A stretch of DNA of 64,000 bases, taken from contig NZ_AP027042.1 in assembly GCF_027924605.1 (NCBI RefSeq), forward strand, positions 907,524 through 971,523. Direction: 5' to 3'. The translations under genes and the position numbers were made by a program. Shown one piece after another: positions 8,504 to 16,877 of the stretch; positions within the stretch are counted from its first letter, which is position 1; each line of letters opens with the position of its first letter. Source of the DNA: Dyella sp. GSA-30 (GTDB lineage: Bacteria > Pseudomonadota > Gammaproteobacteria > Xanthomonadales > Rhodanobacteraceae). The notes under the pieces are model-generated. The model saw only the letters and a program-made list of their open reading frames with translations. It did not search any database and was not told where the DNA came from.

Positions 8504-9187
8504 TCAGCGCCGCTTCCACTCGCTGATCGACAGCACCTGGCTGACCCGCGTGCCGTCCCAGCGGTAGATGAAATGTTCGCTCTGCACGCAGGGCGCGACG
8601 CGGTCCGGATAGAACACGGCGACGCATTCGCCACCGGGATCGCGCACGCTGTCGAAGACCAGCCCGTCCGAACCCTGCGAGCGCAGCTTTCGCGCCAAGG
8701 CGACACTGGCGACGTAGCTGTTGGGATCATGCTCCGCTGGCCAGCCGCCGCGCAGGTCATGCAGCAGGGCATTGATGCTGGTGCGATAGCAGCGCACCTC
8801 CAGGTCGCATGGCGGTTCCGAGGTGGCGGCCAGAAAGCGCTCGCGGTGATAGACGGTTTCTTCCACCGCGGTGTTGACGCTATGCCCGGCATAGAACACA
8901 CCCCAGCTGCCATCGGAAAAACGGCTGCCATCGGGATTCAAATGCGTGAATGCCGCCATCACCGGCGTACTGCCCGGGCCGCTGATACGGCGCTCGGGCG
9001 GCACGAGGCTCAGCTCGCCCGCTTCCTGGCGCAGCCGCGGATTGGTCATGGCCTCGATCGCGAAGATCGCATCCAGATCGCGTGGATCGGCGATGCGATC
9101 GAACACGCCCACCGGCGGAAAGCGGCTGGGAACGATGCGGTAGGCGTGAATCCAGCGGATGCGTTTGACGGGCGGTAGCTGGGTCAT
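8504..9187 (-). CDS. RES domain toxin (NAD+ phosphorylase family)
   Basis: 227 residues with RES-domain features (PF08808): WIHAYRIVPSRFPP near the N-terminus with the NAD-contacting Arg, GVFYAGHSVNTAVEETVYHRERF (~97) containing the conserved Glu, and GLVFDSVRDPGGECVAVFYP (~175). Family toxins such as MbcT deplete NAD+ by phosphorolysis. It follows the Xre/MbcA-type antitoxin gene in the same direction but after a 132-base gap, which is long for a toxin-antitoxin operon. ATG 9187 has an AGGGA site upstream. Convergent with phhA. Confidence 0.88.
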   Translation of the reverse strand: MTQLPPVKRIRWIHAYRIVPSRFPPVGVFDRIADPRDLDAIFAIEAMTNPRLRQEAGELSLVPPERRISGPGSTPVMAAFTHLNPDGSRFSDGSWGVFYAGHSVNTAVEETVYHRERFLAATSEPPCDLEVRCYRTSINALLHDLRGGWPAEHDPNSYVASVALARKLRSQGSDGLVFDSVRDPGGECVAVFYPDRVAPCVQSEHFIYRWDGTRVSQVLSISEWKRR

Positions 9188-9319
9188 TCGGCAATTCCCT
9201 GCCTGGCGAATCGGAAATCACAGCATAGCAATCGGGAGTATCGCTGACTGCGACGCGACTCGCTTTAAGCGTAGCGTATCTCTCAAGGCCGCACAGATTC
9301 ATCCAGTACAGCTTTAATG

Positions 9320-9739
9320 TCAGCCGCGCTGCGCGTCCAGATACTGACGCACGACATAGAGATCGGCGACGTTGCCAGAAAGCATCCGTTCCATCGCTGT
9401 GTGCCCGCCGAACAATGGTGCCTGATTCGACCGATGGACCCAGGCGTTGGCCTGATCCGGATCGCTGAACAGAATATGCAGGCTTTTATAGATGCCCAAT
9501 AGATAACTGATACGTTCGATGACGTCGCGACCGGGTGTGCCGTCCTGCTCGCGCTTCCACTTGTAGAAGGTGGATTCGGGCGGGCCGCCAAGCAGCTTGC
9601 GCTGGTCGACGATGCGCAGCTCCCAGGCATCGGCAAGACGGAAAAAGGCACGCAATGCGGCGCCGCCCAGTTCCTCGATCGGCTGGTCGGCCGGGCCGTT
9701 CTTTTGCGGCGTATGGGTGACGGCGGAATGCATGGTCAC
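9320..9739 (-). CDS. Xre/MbcA/ParS-type antitoxin of RES toxin
   Basis: 139 residues from GTG 9739 (AGGA six bases upstream); ATG 9733 is the alternative. The N-terminal half is helical and Xre-like (ALRAFFRLADAWELRIVDQRKLLGGPPESTFYKWK). The C-terminal toxin-binding part has the DUF2384 look: RISYLLGIYKSLHILFSDPDQANAWVHRSNQAPLFGG, and ends VRQYLDAQRG. It should neutralise the downstream RES protein and repress its own promoter, whose palindromic repeats lie immediately upstream (9741-9789). Confidence 0.88.
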   Translation of the reverse strand: MTMHSAVTHTPQKNGPADQPIEELGGAALRAFFRLADAWELRIVDQRKLLGGPPESTFYKWKREQDGTPGRDVIERISYLLGIYKSLHILFSDPDQANAWVHRSNQAPLFGGHTAMERMLSGNVADLYVVRQYLDAQRG

Positions 9740-9740
9740 G

Positions 9741-9789
9741 TAACTTCCTGTGTGAAGTTGGTAGCAACTTTACCACACTGGTGAAGTTG
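9741..9789. promoter_or_regulatory. palindromic operator of the toxin-antitoxin operon
   Basis: Contains a perfect inverted repeat AAGTTG-GTAG-CAACTT at 9755-9770, and the 9-base word GTGAAGTTG twice (9752-9760 and 9781-9789, 29 bases apart). Another TAACTTC half lies at 9741. The repeats sit directly upstream of the antitoxin start, the usual place for autoregulation by the Xre-type antitoxin or the toxin-antitoxin complex. Confidence 0.7.
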
Positions 9790-9806
9790 TTGCCATAACG
9801 CGCCCG

Positions 9807-10559
9807 TCACGTCGCCGAGGGGATGGCCGCCTGTACCACCGAGGTCCGTGGGTCATCCGCCCGGCCCACCACGGCAAAGCCGTAGCCGTTGCGGAACCAG
9901 TATTTGGCCAGCAGGCCGTTGTCCTGCCGCGAGCCGCTGAGGTCGCCCGGAAAGCGAGTGCTGGGCCGTACATAAAGACTGATGCGTTGCCCCTGCTCGT
10001 CCTCGTACATCACCAGGGCCGCTGGACCGTCGCTGGTGGATAGCAGGCGTCCGCCAAGCAACTTGAAGCCGTAGGAGCCCAGATCCGGCAGGGACATCGG
10101 TCGCCCGATCCGCCCCGAGAGCCAGCTTTCCAGGGCATTGGCATGGCTGCCATCCATTTCCACGGGACGTAGCCGGTCGGTAGCAAAGGTCCGATAAGCC
10201 TCCAGCGCGTCCTGCATCGGCGGATGGGCCGCCGCCAGACTGACATTGCGGGCCTGCCAACCGCCCATGCCGCCGGCGCCCAGGGTGATCAGCAGCGACG
10301 CGCATAGCGCAAGCCGCCGCTGCCGCCGGCGGCGCACGGTGCGGCGCACTGCGACAGGATCGAGCGCTGGATTGGCTGGCAGCAGATAAGCCGGCAGCGC
10401 GGTGCGAAGCATCTCGGCCTGGCGGCGCCATTGCGCGACCCCGGCGGCCTGATCGGGATGCTCGGCCAGCCATGCCTCGATATCGCTGCGCCGGGTGGCG
10501 TCCAGCTGGCCATCCACATAAGCGTGGAGCTCGTCTTCGGTAGGAACAAACGGATTCAT
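9807..10559 (-). CDS. anti-sigma factor, single-pass membrane protein
   Basis: 250 residues. The N-terminal ~70 residues have the anti-sigma domain pattern (DELHAYVDGQLD, IEAWLAEHPDQA) but no HxxxCxxC zinc motif. An Arg-rich stretch RRTVRRRRQRR precedes a membrane helix (about residues 84-100), and the ~150-residue C-terminal part is periplasmic. Its ATG overlaps the sigma factor stop by four bases, so the two are coupled. It is expected to hold the ECF sigma factor at the membrane until an envelope or oxidative signal releases it. Confidence 0.88.
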   Translation of the reverse strand: MNPFVPTEDELHAYVDGQLDATRRSDIEAWLAEHPDQAAGVAQWRRQAEMLRTALPAYLLPANPALDPVAVRRTVRRRRQRRLALCASLLITLGAGGMGGWQARNVSLAAAHPPMQDALEAYRTFATDRLRPVEMDGSHANALESWLSGRIGRPMSLPDLGSYGFKLLGGRLLSTSDGPAALVMYEDEQGQRISLYVRPSTRFPGDLSGSRQDNGLLAKYWFRNGYGFAVVGRADDPRTSVVQAAIPSAT

Positions 10560-11065
10560 TTCACCCTCCGCAACGCGGTGGTTGAGCTGCCGTTGCCGGT
10601 CAACTCGCGATAAGCCTTGCGTGCCCGTGACAGGCGCGACATGACGGTACCGAGCGGGAGATTCAGCGCGGCAGCGGTTTCTTCGTAGCTCAAGCCTTCC
10701 ACGGTGACCATCAGCAACACCGCGCGCTGGTCGTCGCTCAATTGATCGAAACTGCCCAGCGCGCTGCGCGCCGCGTAGGTGTCTTCGGCCGAAGGCTCCT
10801 GCGCCAGGTCATCCCGCCGAAAAGCATCGAACAACCGACCCCAACGCTTGGCGCGCCGTTTGTCGTCGATGAACTGGCGATACAGGATCGAGAACAGCCA
10901 GGCCTTCAGATCACCGTCGCGGCGCGAAGCCCAGCGCGACAGTGCTTTTTCCATGCAGGTCTGTACCAGATCGTCGGCCGTCGCGGCATCGCGGGCCAGC
11001 CATAGCGCGAAACGCCGCAGGGCCGGCAACAGCTCGCGCAGATCGTCGTCGTTGATAGGGTTCAT
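10556..11065 (-). CDS. ECF-type RNA polymerase sigma factor
   Basis: 169 residues. Region 2: LPALRRFALWLARDAATADDLVQTCMEKAL (~12-41) and DGDLKAWLFSILYRQFIDDKRR (~50-71). Region 4: LSDDQRAVLLMVTVEGLSYEETAAALNLPLGTVMSRLSRARKAYRE (~108-154), with the helix-turn-helix intact. Followed by its anti-sigma gene and divergent from a catalase-like peroxidase/cytochrome b561 operon. A promoter-like sequence GGAATAAA-N13-CGTC lies upstream on this strand (11117 down to 11093), and the same module faces the peroxidase, so it probably directs its own operon and the divergent one. Confidence 0.94.
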   Translation of the reverse strand: MNPINDDDLRELLPALRRFALWLARDAATADDLVQTCMEKALSRWASRRDGDLKAWLFSILYRQFIDDKRRAKRWGRLFDAFRRDDLAQEPSAEDTYAARSALGSFDQLSDDQRAVLLMVTVEGLSYEETAAALNLPLGTVMSRLSRARKAYRELTGNGSSTTALRRVK

Positions 11066-11092
11066 GGGGCCGGTTCCGGAGTACCGTGATGT

Positions 11093-11117
11093 GACGCCGC
11101 AACCTGGAATTTATTCC
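11093..11117 (-). promoter_or_regulatory. predicted ECF promoter for sigma/anti-sigma operon
   Basis: On the minus strand GGAATAAA (11117-11110), 13 bases, then CGTC (11096-11093), within TGCGGCGTC. The CGTC -10-like element lies ~28 bases upstream of the sigma factor ATG. Its spacing and core match the opposite-strand promoter at 11122-11146 exactly. Confidence 0.7.
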
Positions 11118-11121
11118 ATCG

Positions 11122-11146
11122 GGAATAAAGCCGCGTCTGCGGCGTC
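11122..11146 (+). promoter_or_regulatory. predicted ECF promoter for catalase-like/cytochrome b561 operon
   Basis: GGAATAAA (11122-11129), 13 bases, then CGTC (11143-11146), within TGCGGCGTC. The two -35-like octamers of the divergent promoters form a perfect inverted repeat TTTATTCC-ATCG-GGAATAAA at 11110-11129. The predicted start of transcription would fall ~33 bases before ATG 11186. Confidence 0.7.
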
Positions 11147-11185
11147 TCGCCCTGGTCGGTACTAGCCACTCTAGGAGCCCAAGCC

Positions 11186-12295
11186 ATGTCCGAACCCACA
11201 CCTCCCCGCCGCCCCGAAACCTTGGCCAAGGGCGCATTGATCGGGGTCATCCTCGCTGTCATCGCCGGCTTGTTTGTCTGGGCCGCCGGCTGGCTCAGCC
11301 CGTCACGCATATCGGGGGGCCGGATAGTGGATGCCCTGGAAACCCATGGGGTCCACCCTGGCGTGCGCCGCGCGCACGAAAAAGGCCTGTGCTTCGCCGG
11401 ACATTTCGATGCCAACGGCAACGGCACGGCCCTGTCCAGGGCCGGGGTATTCGCTCAGGGACGCACGCCCGTCTTTGGACGCTTCTCGCTCGGCGTTGGC
11501 GACCCGAACTCACCCGATGGCGTGCCGGGCTTCCACGCCATCGCATTGAGCTTTCAACAGGCCAATGGCGAGATCTGGCGCACCGCGATGGACGACACGC
11601 CGATTTTCCCGATCGCTACACCGCAGTCGTTTGTCGATTTTCAGCTGGCCACCGCACCGGACAAGGCCACCGGCAAGCCCGACCCGGCACGCGTGCAGGC
11701 CTATATGGCGGCCCATCCGGAAACGCGTGCTTTCGTGAAGTGGCTGCACGACGCGCCGTTCGCGGCGAGTTTCGCGGCCAGTACGTATTACTCGATCAAC
11801 GCGTTTCGTTTCACCAATAGCGAAGGGCAGACACGCGCCGTGCGCTGGTCGCTCAAGCCCGAGGCGCCGTTTGTCGAGATCGACAAGGCCAAGCTGGCCG
11901 ACCTCAACAAGATGCAGCCCAACTTTCTGTTCGACGATGCGATTCAACGCCTGAGCCAACAACCGCTGCGCTGGGAACTCATCGTGACGCTTGCCCAACC
12001 GGGCGATCCGACCAACGACGCGACCAAGCCATGGCCTGCCGATCGCGAACAGGTCGATGTGGGCACGCTGGTGCTCGACCGCGCGTCGCTCGAAGACAAC
12101 GGGCCGTGCCGCGATGTCACTTTCGATCCGCTGATCCTCCCGGCTGGCATATCCGCGTCCGATGACCCAGTGCTTGCCGCACGTTCGGCTGCCTATGCAC
12201 GTTCGTTCACCCGCCGTGCCGGTGAACAGCCCACACCGCCGAGCGCCTTGTCCAAAGACGCGGCCGCACGTTCTGTTCTGGAAGGAGCGCGCTGA
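11186..12295 (+). CDS. catalase-family peroxidase (SrpA-like), membrane-anchored
   Basis: 369 residues; AGGAG lies nine bases before ATG 11186. A membrane helix (about residues 18-40) anchors a periplasmic catalase-fold domain. Recognisable parts: VHPGVRRAHEKGLCFAGHFDANG with the distal His region, TPVFGRFSLGVGDPNSPDG, GFHAIALSF, ESP-like DDTPIFPIATPQSFVDFQ, and a C-terminal FDPLILPAGISASDDPVLAARSAAYARSF with the proximal Tyr-type RSAAYA segment. The small catalase-related peroxidases of this group use heme and peroxide. It overlaps cytochrome b561 by one base; together they look like a peroxide-handling unit controlled by the divergent sigma factor. Confidence 0.9.
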   Translation: MSEPTPPRRPETLAKGALIGVILAVIAGLFVWAAGWLSPSRISGGRIVDALETHGVHPGVRRAHEKGLCFAGHFDANGNGTALSRAGVFAQGRTPVFGRFSLGVGDPNSPDGVPGFHAIALSFQQANGEIWRTAMDDTPIFPIATPQSFVDFQLATAPDKATGKPDPARVQAYMAAHPETRAFVKWLHDAPFAASFAASTYYSINAFRFTNSEGQTRAVRWSLKPEAPFVEIDKAKLADLNKMQPNFLFDDAIQRLSQQPLRWELIVTLAQPGDPTNDATKPWPADREQVDVGTLVLDRASLEDNGPCRDVTFDPLILPAGISASDDPVLAARSAAYARSFTRRAGEQPTPPSALSKDAAARSVLEGAR

Positions 12296-12840
12296 TGAAC
12301 ACGCCGATCCGTTTCTCGCTTGCCCTGCGCGCCCTGCACTGGCTGATGGCGCTGATGATCCTGGCCATGCTGTTTATCGGCGTCGGCATGATGTCGACCG
12401 CCTCCGATGCGCGGCGTTGGCTGTATGAGCTGCACAAGCCGTTGGGCATTCTGATTCTCGTGTTGGCTGCGATCCGTCTGATCGTTCGACTGGTCACCAA
12501 GGCGCCGCCTCTACCCGCGGATCTGCCGGCCATTCAGAAGCTCGCCGCGCATGCGTCGCATGTGCTGCTTTATGTGCTGATGTTCGCGCTGCCGCTGATC
12601 GGGTGGGCGATGTTGTCGGCCGGCGGCTATCCGATCAGCCTGTTCGGCTCGATCCACCTGCCTCCGATCGTGTCGCAGAGCGCGCCGTTGTATGCGCTAC
12701 TGCATGCCGTGCACGTGACCTTGGCACTGTCGTTGTTCGGGGTGGTGCTTGCTCATCTGGGAGCGGCTTTGTTGCATGGGCTGATACGCCGGGATGGCGT
12801 ATTTTCCGCTATGGGCTCGTGGAAGCGGGGGAGATTTTGA
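12295..12840 (+). CDS. cytochrome b561 family protein
   Basis: 181 residues with four hydrophobic helices. Heme-ligand type histidines are in place: ALHWLMAL (helix 1), ELHKPLGILIL (helix 2), LLHAVHVTLALSLFGVVLAHLGAALLHGL (helix 4). Start ATG overlaps the peroxidase stop (TGATG), so the two are coupled. This di-heme membrane protein would pass electrons from the quinol pool to a periplasmic partner; here the likely partner is the anchored catalase-like peroxidase. Confidence 0.92.
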   Translation: MNTPIRFSLALRALHWLMALMILAMLFIGVGMMSTASDARRWLYELHKPLGILILVLAAIRLIVRLVTKAPPLPADLPAIQKLAAHASHVLLYVLMFALPLIGWAMLSAGGYPISLFGSIHLPPIVSQSAPLYALLHAVHVTLALSLFGVVLAHLGAALLHGLIRRDGVFSAMGSWKRGRF

Positions 12841-13091: not shown

Positions 13092-16000
13092 ATGCAAGTC
13101 AAAAAAGGGTTTCGTTGCTGCCTGCATGAACGCCCAGGGATGGGCGGCCTTATTGCTGCCGATGCGCTCGACCGAAAATTCCTTGCTCTCGCGTCGCAGC
13201 GACTACGACCGATATGTCTCGGATTGCTTGCGGCCGGAATGGGCATGGCCGGCCGGACAGTCGATGCCCAGACGATCAACCTGACGAGTGGCAGCCCAAG
13301 GTATGTGCTGACGGGTAACCAGACGGTCTCGGCCGTCACGGTCGGCAACAACGTCAATGGCGTGATTTCCGGGCCCGGCTACACGTTGACGTACACGGGC
13401 GCGACAACGGGTTTCATCTTGGGCGGTACATCGGCAACCTCGCGTATGCAGCTCGATATGACCGGGTTGACGAACTTTGTTTTCAACAACCCCACGCAAA
13501 CGTTCATCGTGAGCGGGCGCAGCAATACCGGAGCCGGCAGTGGAACGCTCTTTCTTGCGCAGGGCAGTAATGCCATTACAACGTCATCATTCAGCGTAGG
13601 CAGTGTAGCAAACGGCGCAGGCGGTGCGTTCCAGAATCTCGGTACCGTACGCCTCGGCAAAAGCAACAGCATCAACGCCGACACAATCAATGTGGGTACG
13701 GCATCCAGAACCGGTGGCACGCTATCGTTTCAGAGCAGCACCGGGGATGCGACATTGGCATTGCGCGGTGTCGATGGAGCCAGCCCTGTCGCCAACTGGA
13801 ATATCGGTATCAACGGTACCGGCAACGCGAACACTTCAGGCACCGTCGATCTCAGTGGAGGGACGCTGGATGCGAAAGTGACCAACCTGACGATCGGCGA
13901 ATCGAGAAGCGGCTCATTTTCAGGTGTTGGCGCCTTGACGCTGGACAAGGGCACGCTGGACGCAACCTCGATCGTGCTCGGATTGCGCGATGGCACAGCC
14001 GGAACCGGCTCGGCGTCGGGCACCCTGACTATCAACAATGCGGCCGTCACCACACAGACCCTCACACTCGGCAGCGACGCACGCGCGGCCGGCACGGCGA
14101 CGGCGACGCTGAATCTAAATGGCGGCGCGCTGCTGGCGCAGACGATCCAACCGGGTGCCGGTGGCGGAACGCGCAACTTCAACTGGAACGGCGGAACTCT
14201 CGGTAACTATGCAGAGGGTTCCGATATGACGGTGTCGATACCCACCATCACGTTGGTCGGCAGCGGCAATCAGATCTTTGATGTCGAGGGCGGTGACGCG
14301 ACCGCCACGGTGAGCTCGGTATTGAGCGGCGCCGGAGGATTTACCAAGACTGGCGCCGGCACGCTAGCCCTGACCGGCGCCAGCACGTACGCAGGCGGTA
14401 CGACGGTTACCGGTGGCTTGATCAATTTCGCGACGCTCGACAACCTCGGTGCGGGCAACATCACGCTCGATGGGGGTGGGTTGCAATGGGCAGCGGGCAG
14501 CACGGTCGATGTTTCCTCGCGATTGAATCCTTTGGGAGCGGGCGGCGCGACATTGGATACTCAGCGCAATGACGTCACGCTTGCCAGTGTGCTGACCGGC
14601 CCCGGGCAGCTGATCAAGAACGGGCAAGGTGCATTGACGCTGACGGCCGGCAATACCTACGCGGGTGGCACCACCATCAACGCCGGTCAATTGCAGTTGG
14701 GCGATGGCGGAACATCCGGAAGCATTGTCGGTAATGTCGTAGACAATGCTTCGCTGCAGTTCAATCGCTCCGATGCCGTTACTTTCGATGGAACCATTTC
14801 AGGCAGCGGTAGCTTGTCTGTCGCAGGTTCGGGTGTCACCGTGTTGACGGGCGACAACACGTTCACCGGCGGAACCACGATTAAGCAAGGCTCCGGCGGG
14901 CTGCAGTTGGGTAACGGCGGCAGTACCGGCAGCGTGATCGGCACGATCCTCGATAACGGTTCGCTGAGTATCGATCGCGCCGATTCGCTGACCCTTTCCA
15001 GTACGATCTCCGGTAGTGGCTCGCTGGCGCAGACAGGCACGGGCACCACGATTCTCGCCGGCGACAATACCTATACGGGTGGCACCGCGATTAACGCAGG
15101 CGTGCTGCAACTGGGCCACGGCGGCACGACCGGCATCGTTATCGGCAATATCACGGACAACGGCACGCTGGCGTTCAACCGCTCCGATGACCTGACCTAT
15201 TCGAACATCATCAGTGGTACCGGCGGCGTCGACCAACTCGGGCCGGGAACACTGCGTTTCAGCGGCGATCAGACGTATGCCGGGCCGACCAGGATATTGG
15301 CGGGGACCCTTGCAATCGACGGTTCGATTCAGTCGAACACGGTAACGGTGGCGCCGGGCGCGACCCTGTCGGGGTTTGGCGTGATCGGCGGCGATGTTCA
15401 GAACCAGGGCCGTGTGTGGCCTGGCAATCCCGTCATTGGCGACACTCAGTATGGCTCGTTGACGATACGCGGCAACTACGTCGGCCAGGGTGGTGTGCTT
15501 GAACTGAACACATATATGGGAGGCGACGATTCGCCCTCGGACCGATTGATCATTGACGGCGGTGCGGTGACTGGGTCGACGACGGTAATTGCGCACAACA
15601 CGGCTGCGACGATAGGTGAGACCACCGGTAACGGTGTTCTGGTGGTATCGGCGATCAATGGTGCGACAACAACGACCGACGCGTTCAGGCTCGCCGGCGA
15701 GCTGCGTAGCGGCGCACTCGACTATCGCTTGTTCCGTGGTGGTGCCGATGGCAGCAATGTGGACAGCTGGTATCTACGCAACGAGTTCGTCGTTCCACCC
15801 GAGCCGCCGGGCCCTCCGGAGGAGGTGCTGCCCATCGATCCGCCGGTCGAACCCGTGTTGCCTCCCGGCGTGTATCCGATCATCGGCCCACAGATCGCCA
15901 CCTACAGTTCCGTGATGCCGGTGGCGCGCGATCTGGCGCAATTCGAACTGGGGACATTGGACCAACGCATCGGAGACAGCGCGCTGATGGCATCGGAACA

Positions 16001-16877
16001 TGCCGATAGCGATCACGGACCGTCCGTGTGGGCGCGCGTATTTGCCAACAGTTTCAACCACAGCTACCGGTCTTTTGCTGCGCCTCGGGCCGATGGCGAC
16101 ATGTATGGCATCCAGGTCGGTGCCGACCTGTGGCAGGGCGAATGGATATCGGGCCATGCCGATCGGATGGGAGCTTACCTGGCCTACGGTAGTGCCGGCG
16201 CGGATGTGCGTGGACTGGTGACCAATGACGAAGCCACCGGCTACGAGATGCAACAGACCGGCACATTGAGGCTCTACGCGACCTCGTTCGGCGCCTATTT
16301 CACCCATTACGGTCCAGGCGACTGGTATGTGGACGGCGTGGTGCAGGCGACGAGTTATCGCGGTCGTGCCAATACATCCAATACCAGCCTCGATACCGGG
16401 GGTACCGGTTTGCTCGGCTCACTGGAGGCGGGCTATCCGTTTCCGTGGGCCGCGCTCGGTCCAGGTTTCGTGCTCGAACCGCAGATTCAGGTGATCTGGC
16501 AAAAGAGCCGTTTCGGTTCTGGCGACGATGGCCTGGGCGAGGTCGCGCTGGGCAGCGCCTATGGCAATACGGGTCGCGTCGGGCTGCGTGGCAAGTGGTC
16601 ATGGACCACCGCCAGCGGACAACGCTGGCAGCCCTATGTCGCGGTGAACTGGTGGCGCGACTGGGGCGCGCGGGCGACCACCGGCTACGACGATCTGGGC
16701 TCGGTGCCGGCGGTTGTTCAGGCGAGTCGTGTCGAATTGTCGGCAGGTGTCACCGCGCGTTTGACGGCGCGTCTGACCGCTTATGCATCAGGCGGCGGCC
16801 AGATGGCGGTGGGGCGCACGACGAATACAAAGCGGGACAGTCTGTATGCGAATGCGGGGCTGCGTTGGACCTGGTAG
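13092..16877 (+). CDS. autotransporter outer membrane beta-barrel protein with PATR repeats
   Basis: 1261 residues. The N-terminus is a long, extended signal peptide: a ~38-residue charged leader, then LGLLAAGMGMAG and likely cleavage at VDA-QT (~59). The passenger is Gly/Thr/Ser rich beta-helix. Five autotransporter-associated repeats (PF12951), each of the form G.G.L...G.G.L.L.G.NTY.GGT.I..G, begin near residues 411, 500, 569, 639 and 707. A Pro-rich linker (VPPEPPGPP..., ~898-920) precedes the C-terminal autotransporter barrel (~975-1261), which ends in LRWTW, the aromatic terminus needed for BAM insertion. Type Va secretion; adhesin, biofilm or surface role is inferred. No protease motif seen. 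Confidence 0.93.
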   Translation: MQVKKGFRCCLHERPGMGGLIAADALDRKFLALASQRLRPICLGLLAAGMGMAGRTVDAQTINLTSGSPRYVLTGNQTVSAVTVGNNVNGVISGPGYTLTYTGATTGFILGGTSATSRMQLDMTGLTNFVFNNPTQTFIVSGRSNTGAGSGTLFLAQGSNAITTSSFSVGSVANGAGGAFQNLGTVRLGKSNSINADTINVGTASRTGGTLSFQSSTGDATLALRGVDGASPVANWNIGINGTGNANTSGTVDLSGGTLDAKVTNLTIGESRSGSFSGVGALTLDKGTLDATSIVLGLRDGTAGTGSASGTLTINNAAVTTQTLTLGSDARAAGTATATLNLNGGALLAQTIQPGAGGGTRNFNWNGGTLGNYAEGSDMTVSIPTITLVGSGNQIFDVEGGDATATVSSVLSGAGGFTKTGAGTLALTGASTYAGGTTVTGGLINFATLDNLGAGNITLDGGGLQWAAGSTVDVSSRLNPLGAGGATLDTQRNDVTLASVLTGPGQLIKNGQGALTLTAGNTYAGGTTINAGQLQLGDGGTSGSIVGNVVDNASLQFNRSDAVTFDGTISGSGSLSVAGSGVTVLTGDNTFTGGTTIKQGSGGLQLGNGGSTGSVIGTILDNGSLSIDRADSLTLSSTISGSGSLAQTGTGTTILAGDNTYTGGTAINAGVLQLGHGGTTGIVIGNITDNGTLAFNRSDDLTYSNIISGTGGVDQLGPGTLRFSGDQTYAGPTRILAGTLAIDGSIQSNTVTVAPGATLSGFGVIGGDVQNQGRVWPGNPVIGDTQYGSLTIRGNYVGQGGVLELNTYMGGDDSPSDRLIIDGGAVTGSTTVIAHNTAATIGETTGNGVLVVSAINGATTTTDAFRLAGELRSGALDYRLFRGGADGSNVDSWYLRNEFVVPPEPPGPPEEVLPIDPPVEPVLPPGVYPIIGPQIATYSSVMPVARDLAQFELGTLDQRIGDSALMASEHADSDHGPSVWARVFANSFNHSYRSFAAPRADGDMYGIQVGADLWQGEWISGHADRMGAYLAYGSAGADVRGLVTNDEATGYEMQQTGTLRLYATSFGAYFTHYGPGDWYVDGVVQATSYRGRANTSNTSLDTGGTGLLGSLEAGYPFPWAALGPGFVLEPQIQVIWQKSRFGSGDDGLGEVALGSAYGNTGRVGLRGKWSWTTASGQRWQPYVAVNWWRDWGARATTGYDDLGSVPAVVQASRVELSAGVTARLTARLTAYASGGGQMAVGRTTNTKRDSLYANAGLRWTW

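Follow-up and report, generated by a model that had tools for sequence, protein, structure and literature searches.

What reads the 120-bp gap that separates two divergent gene pairs in the genome of Dyella sp. GSA-30, and what does it switch on? The window (the whole 64,000-nt stretch of DNA that was analyzed) contains this gap between the ATG of a sigma factor gene (11065) and the ATG of a peroxidase gene (11186). Leading away on the minus strand are the genes for an ECF sigma factor of 169 aa (10556..11065), which has the ECF architecture of regions 2 and 4 only (Pfam Sigma70_r2 and Sigma70_r4_2), and for a membrane anti-sigma factor of 250 aa (9807..10559), whose gene shares 4 bp with the sigma gene and whose sequence matches an NCBIfam anti-sigma model weakly. 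The plus strand encodes a predicted SrpA-like, catalase-family peroxidase of 369 aa (11186..12295) and a cytochrome b561 of 181 aa (12295..12840; Pfam Ni_hydr_CYTB, E 2.6e-27), whose start overlaps the peroxidase stop. The peroxidase combines an N-terminal membrane anchor (about residues 16-34) with a catalase core (Pfam Catalase PF00199, E 1.9e-30) in a protein of the ~370-aa size typical of SrpA-like proteins, and most loci encoding a peroxidase with >40% identity to it have an adjoining b561 gene. The neighbors are a type V autotransporter gene downstream of b561 (13092-16877, plus strand), whose product contains both PATR repeats and an autochaperone domain, and a RES-Xre toxin-antitoxin pair (8504-9739, minus strand), in which an Xre/MbcA/ParS-type antitoxin gene precedes that of the RES-domain protein. 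The region directly upstream of the RES-Xre genes, where an imperfect inverted repeat of 17 nt (9759-9795) accompanies a GTGAAGTTG direct repeat, is probably their operator.

Inspection of the gap reveals the same promoter-like arrangement on both strands. On the plus strand, the -35 element GGAATAAA (11122-11129) is followed by the 13-base spacer GCCGCGTCTGCGG and the -10 element CGTC (11143-11146), giving a predicted ECF26-type promoter for the peroxidase/b561 operon at 11122..11146. Likewise, the minus strand from 11117 to 11093 reads GGAATAAA (11117-11110), the 13-base spacer TTCCAGGTTGCGG, and CGTC (11096-11093), a predicted autoregulatory ECF26-type promoter for the sigma/anti-sigma operon at 11093..11117. 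Both sites match exactly, as the preliminary description had stated and as the sequence and a pattern search show, and both CGTC words sit within TGCGGCGTC. The two back-to-back -35 elements make up a perfect 8-4-8 inverted repeat, TTTATTCC-ATCG-GGAATAAA (11110..11129), also present as described. In the window, shuffling gives an expectation of 0.01 sites for GGAATAAA-N13-CGTC, and none of 100 shuffles reached 2. When the search was extended to the whole 5.5-Mb genome, a check that had been proposed earlier, it returned exactly the two sites in the sigma/peroxidase gap and none for the reversed control, against about 0.28 expected from base composition. Relaxing the pattern to GGAATA-N15/16-CGTC yielded 18 sites versus 12 in the control, with no convincing further promoter in this genome; the sites other than the pair fall mostly within likely genes.

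The motif almost always accompanies the sigma gene. We collected peroxidase homologues both within the family (147 genomes) and from a collection of genomes at species level, read 146 loci, and looked for GGAAT-N16/17-CGTC upstream of the peroxidase. A divergent sigma gene stands beside the peroxidase in 23 of the 146 loci, and the site is present on the catalase side in 22 and on both strands in 21 of these 23, so that the paired motif predicted for orthologous gaps is indeed found there. Only one of the 123 catalase loci without a divergent sigma gene has the site, that of Cedecea (L124), in which the sigma and anti-sigma genes lie downstream in the same operon as the catalase; with Cedecea excluded, the association between site and divergent sigma gene has a Fisher value of 4e-25. 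The spacing is nearly invariant, with exactly 16 bases from GGAAT to CGTC in 41 of the 42 copies in the 21 paired loci. Moreover, among 107 distinct copies, the base after GGAAT is always A and the next base is A in 89%, neither of which was required by the search. TGCGG preceding CGTC is not conserved in orthologues. The number of sites follows the gene order as well: co-directional catalase-b561-sigma-anti-sigma operons (Pantoea dispersa, Pantoea At-9b, Duffyella, and Cedecea) carry a single site in front of the catalase gene, and divergent Gluconobacter loci carry two. The exact site is absent at some sigma/anti-sigma loci, namely on the catalase side of L122 and at L238 (P. piersonii) and L251. 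One divergent locus of the same family (L224) has kept the catalase-side site and lost a recognizable sigma-side site. Peroxidase-b561 pairs also occur in Mycobacterium, Brevibacterium, Arthrobacter, Nocardia, and Rhodococcus (L125, L126, L128-L153, and L186) with neither an ECF neighbor nor a catalase-side motif, which indicates that the peroxidase-b561 module travels independently of the regulator. A B. cenocepacia record from the plasmid set (L242) holds a different, sigma-free catalase-b561 locus.

A search that used no protein information led to the same genes. The blind pattern GACG-N16-ATTCC-N3..33-GGAAT-N16-CGTC matched 9 of 398 genomes of the phylum (the window genome included) and 40 of 299 genomes of another family, with zero matches for its reversed control in both sets. 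Reading 37 loci showed 35 to be divergent sigma/catalase loci and the other two to be chance matches. In Bradyrhizobium betae (L250, 2379-2434), a GGAATA/CGTC pair lies between NTF2-sigma-anti-sigma genes and divergent DUF305/YncE genes; paired promoters of the ECF26 type thus also occur with different targets. St. novella RpoE1 activates a DUF305-YVTN target set such as that found beside the L250 pair (PMC6527743).

The motif is that of a known promoter class. A -35 GGAAT and a -10 CGTC have been reported for S. meliloti sorT and rpoE4 and for St. novella sorA, together with reporter activation (PMC6527743), and a cross-species GGAATA/GT consensus goes with start-mapped ECF26 promoters, among them S. 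meliloti sorT, which reads GGAATTTT-N13-CGTC (PMC6180224). Compared with this published consensus, the Dyella gap and its orthologues carry a predicted autoregulatory GGAATA/CGT(C) promoter of the kind expected for ECF26. As the mapped starts in S. meliloti lie 9-10 nt past CGTC (PMC6180224, Table 1), transcription is predicted to begin at ~11155-11156 on the plus strand and ~11083-11084 on the minus strand; the offset of ~7 nt suggested earlier is probably too short.

The proteins were compared as well. Orthologues of the sigma factor are up to 65% identical. The S. meliloti comparison covered the plasmid-encoded sigma factors, of which the one on pSymA, taken to be RpoE6, comes closest (39.5% identity, E 9e-27). 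In a tree that is suggestive at best and has weak deep forks, the window sigma factor groups with DUF305/YVTN-linked SnRpoE1-type sigma factors, and RpoE6 falls outside on a long branch. The anti-sigma factor consists of a cytoplasmic N-terminal domain, one transmembrane segment (about 83-101), and a periplasmic C-terminal domain (about 128-250), as judged from alignment, hydropathy, and a structural model; this is the ECF26 layout of an N-terminal anti-sigma domain, a transmembrane segment, and a periplasmic domain described for EcfR1/3/4/6 (PMC6180224). Because the motif equals the published ECF26 consensus and the gene order and anti-sigma layout also fit, the sigma factor is very likely ECF26-type, and the ECF26 assignment offered in the preliminary description is very likely right. 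The ECF26 members studied so far respond to sulfite, and no paper in the library that we searched joins ECF26 with a catalase and b561 context.

Taken together, the sequence comparisons make it highly probable that the gap holds two divergent promoters of the adjacent ECF26-type sigma factor, one for autoregulation and one for control of the membrane-anchored peroxidase and b561. The proposal that the motif is the binding sequence of the sigma factor encoded at 10556-11065, with joint control of both enzyme genes, is strongly supported, since the motif equals the ECF26 consensus and tracks the presence of the sigma gene. As judged from the genomes compared, the same promoter pair precedes the same genes in many bacteria, and it is of an already-known type. 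At rest, the membrane-spanning anti-sigma factor would hold the sigma factor, which a periplasmic or envelope oxidative signal, presumably a periplasmic oxidant, would set free. Sigma-bound RNA polymerase would then read GGAATA(AA)-N13-CGTC both ways, presumably through this particular sigma factor, raising sigma and anti-sigma in one direction and the membrane-anchored peroxidase and cytochrome b561 from the other strand. Cytochrome b561 is the likely quinol-to-peroxidase electron donor; it would probably pass electrons from the quinol pool to the anchored peroxidase, which would reduce periplasmic peroxide. The promoter step of this circuit is well supported, and we infer the signal and the electron path.

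The preliminary description had gone further and suggested that -35 elements only four bases apart compete for polymerase, making the locus a built-in switch between regulator and enzyme. An ordinary ECF holoenzyme touches the -35 region between about -30 and -40. Given these contacts, an overlap of two polymerases on their upstream sides is sterically plausible at the 4-bp separation in Dyella, and most of the family's divergent loci, from several genera, also have a short separation of 7-9 bp. However, the separation is 13 bp in one locus, 25-26 bp in the Burkholderia-type genus g95, 27-30 bp in g41, 36-65 bp in Luteimonas, Pseudoxanthomonas, and another genus, and about 50 bp in Gluconobacter. 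In Burkholderia, where the distance is 25-26 bp, the two genes are induced together and not in alternation. With 4 bp seen only in Dyella, a range of 4-65 bp overall, and the exact palindrome lost in most relatives, a built-in switch is improbable as a property of the locus, although the two promoters may compete in this one genome.

It is very improbable that some other ECF or group sigma factor reads the two promoters and that the neighboring sigma gene is simply one of its targets. The genome encodes many sigma paralogues, with 35 sigma-region-4 domains, so another sigma factor could in principle read the sites, and ECF26 paralogues are known to cross-activate in S. meliloti (PMC6527743). 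Yet the motif is gone from catalase-b561 loci where the neighboring sigma gene is absent, and we found no second ECF26-like sigma factor in the genome, the best paralogue being 34% identical. The reading of 11110-11129 as an operator bound by a dimeric repressor or activator, to which the perfect 8-4-8 symmetry might point, is hardly tenable and was rejected, because half-sites are 4 to 65 bp apart, occur singly in co-directional operons, each keep a fixed 16-base distance to their own CGTC, and have lost perfect symmetry in most relatives, where the sigma-side octamer is usually GGAATAAT; the variable separation and the divergent octamer mark the inverted repeat as a by-product of two -35 elements.

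Returning to the paired promoters of the adjacent sigma factor, we asked what the anti-sigma factor might sense. A zinc-thiol redox switch was rejected as a candidate: the only cysteine of the protein lies inside the transmembrane segment, and 12 homologues have no conserved cysteine column, both of which argue against such a switch. An AlphaFold2 model built from five sequences has a mean pLDDT of 72, mostly 80-87 in the periplasmic part. The N-terminal domain of this model matches the ChrR anti-sigma domain (Z 8.4), and the best match of the periplasmic domain is the C-terminal domain of RseB/MucB (Foldseek E 6e-4; Z 8.9-9.2, rmsd 2.2-2.9 over 90-95 residues), with unrelated entries in the fold comparison at Z of about 6. 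Sequence profiles from Pfam and PDB gave no significant match to the periplasmic domain, and the resemblance to RseB/MucB is seen by fold comparison only. The prediction is thus that the periplasmic domain adopts the fold of the RseB/MucB small domain, a likeness that by itself says nothing about function. As a tentative and rather doubtful extension, the anti-sigma factor may be a one-chain fusion of an RseA/ChrR-type domain with an RseB/MucB-like periplasmic sensor that responds to envelope damage, such as oxidized or misplaced lipid, and not to peroxide via cysteine chemistry, in which case the locus would be a self-contained envelope-peroxide response. The predicted RseB-like fold would offer the first concrete handle on the signal that is sensed.

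For an oxidant-response circuit that is widespread and has been little studied, these results supply an exact binding sequence that can be tested. The comparative evidence indicates that the ECF26 promoter rule, known from rhizobial sulfite responses, extends to catalase-family peroxidase/b561 operons elsewhere in the Proteobacteria.

One of the closest known systems is the homologous divergent sigma/catalase pair of B. cenocepacia, whose sigma factor BCAL3478 is PrtI-like and is EcfB (PMC2194791). In biofilms treated with H2O2, BCAL3478 rose 16.6-fold and the divergent catalase gene BCAL3477 23.1-fold by qPCR at 60 min; neither responded in this way to NaOCl, and the late kinetics led the authors to suspect an indirect trigger (PMC2830190). 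The published ecfB primers (PMC2194791) land with 0-2 mismatches in six motif-bearing loci of genus g95 and delimit exactly the 454-bp amplicon implied by the coordinates in that paper, which assigns the divergent promoter pair to ecfB orthologues. The paired promoters, read in these close relatives, would explain the joint rise of sigma gene and catalase under H2O2. Unlike in Dyella, 25-26 bp holding an A/T tract separate the -35 elements there, and the Burkholderia promoters are predicted ones. The tract is conserved in the Burkholderia-type loci L294 and L302-L330 (e.g., GAAGAAATTTTTCGTATGCTG) and is possibly an UP element or a site for an additional regulator.

The predicted fold of the anti-sigma periplasmic domain recalls RseA-RseB of E. 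coli and MucA-MucB of P. aeruginosa, since it matches the small domain at the C-terminus of RseB/MucB (Z about 9 over 90-95 residues); we propose a likeness of fold and not membership of the RseB/MucB family. In those systems, RseB/MucB is a separate periplasmic protein with a large N-terminal domain, whereas in Dyella the predicted small domain is fused to the anti-sigma factor, the 250-aa chain has no room for the large one, and the sigma factor belongs to another ECF group. The peroxidase domain has its nearest solved relative in the catalase-related peroxidase 3e4w (E 7e-39), the aligned region of which begins after the Dyella membrane anchor.

At the level of the promoter, the related sigma/anti-sigma pair of Starkeya novella RpoE1 (ECF26) has a GGAATA/CGTC pair in its Bradyrhizobium homologue; however, its own DUF305-YVTN targets differ, and it is induced on tetrathionate. 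The S. meliloti RpoE4-EcfR4/sorT system (ECF26) shares with Dyella the -35 GGAAT(A) and -10 CGTC, with identical spacing at sorT, as well as a sigma factor held with a membrane anti-sigma factor and the activation of both sigma and target (PMC6180224 and PMC6527743). It differs in that its target is a sulfite dehydrogenase, its signal is sulfite, and its sigma operon lies directly upstream of sorT, with no shared peroxidase target.
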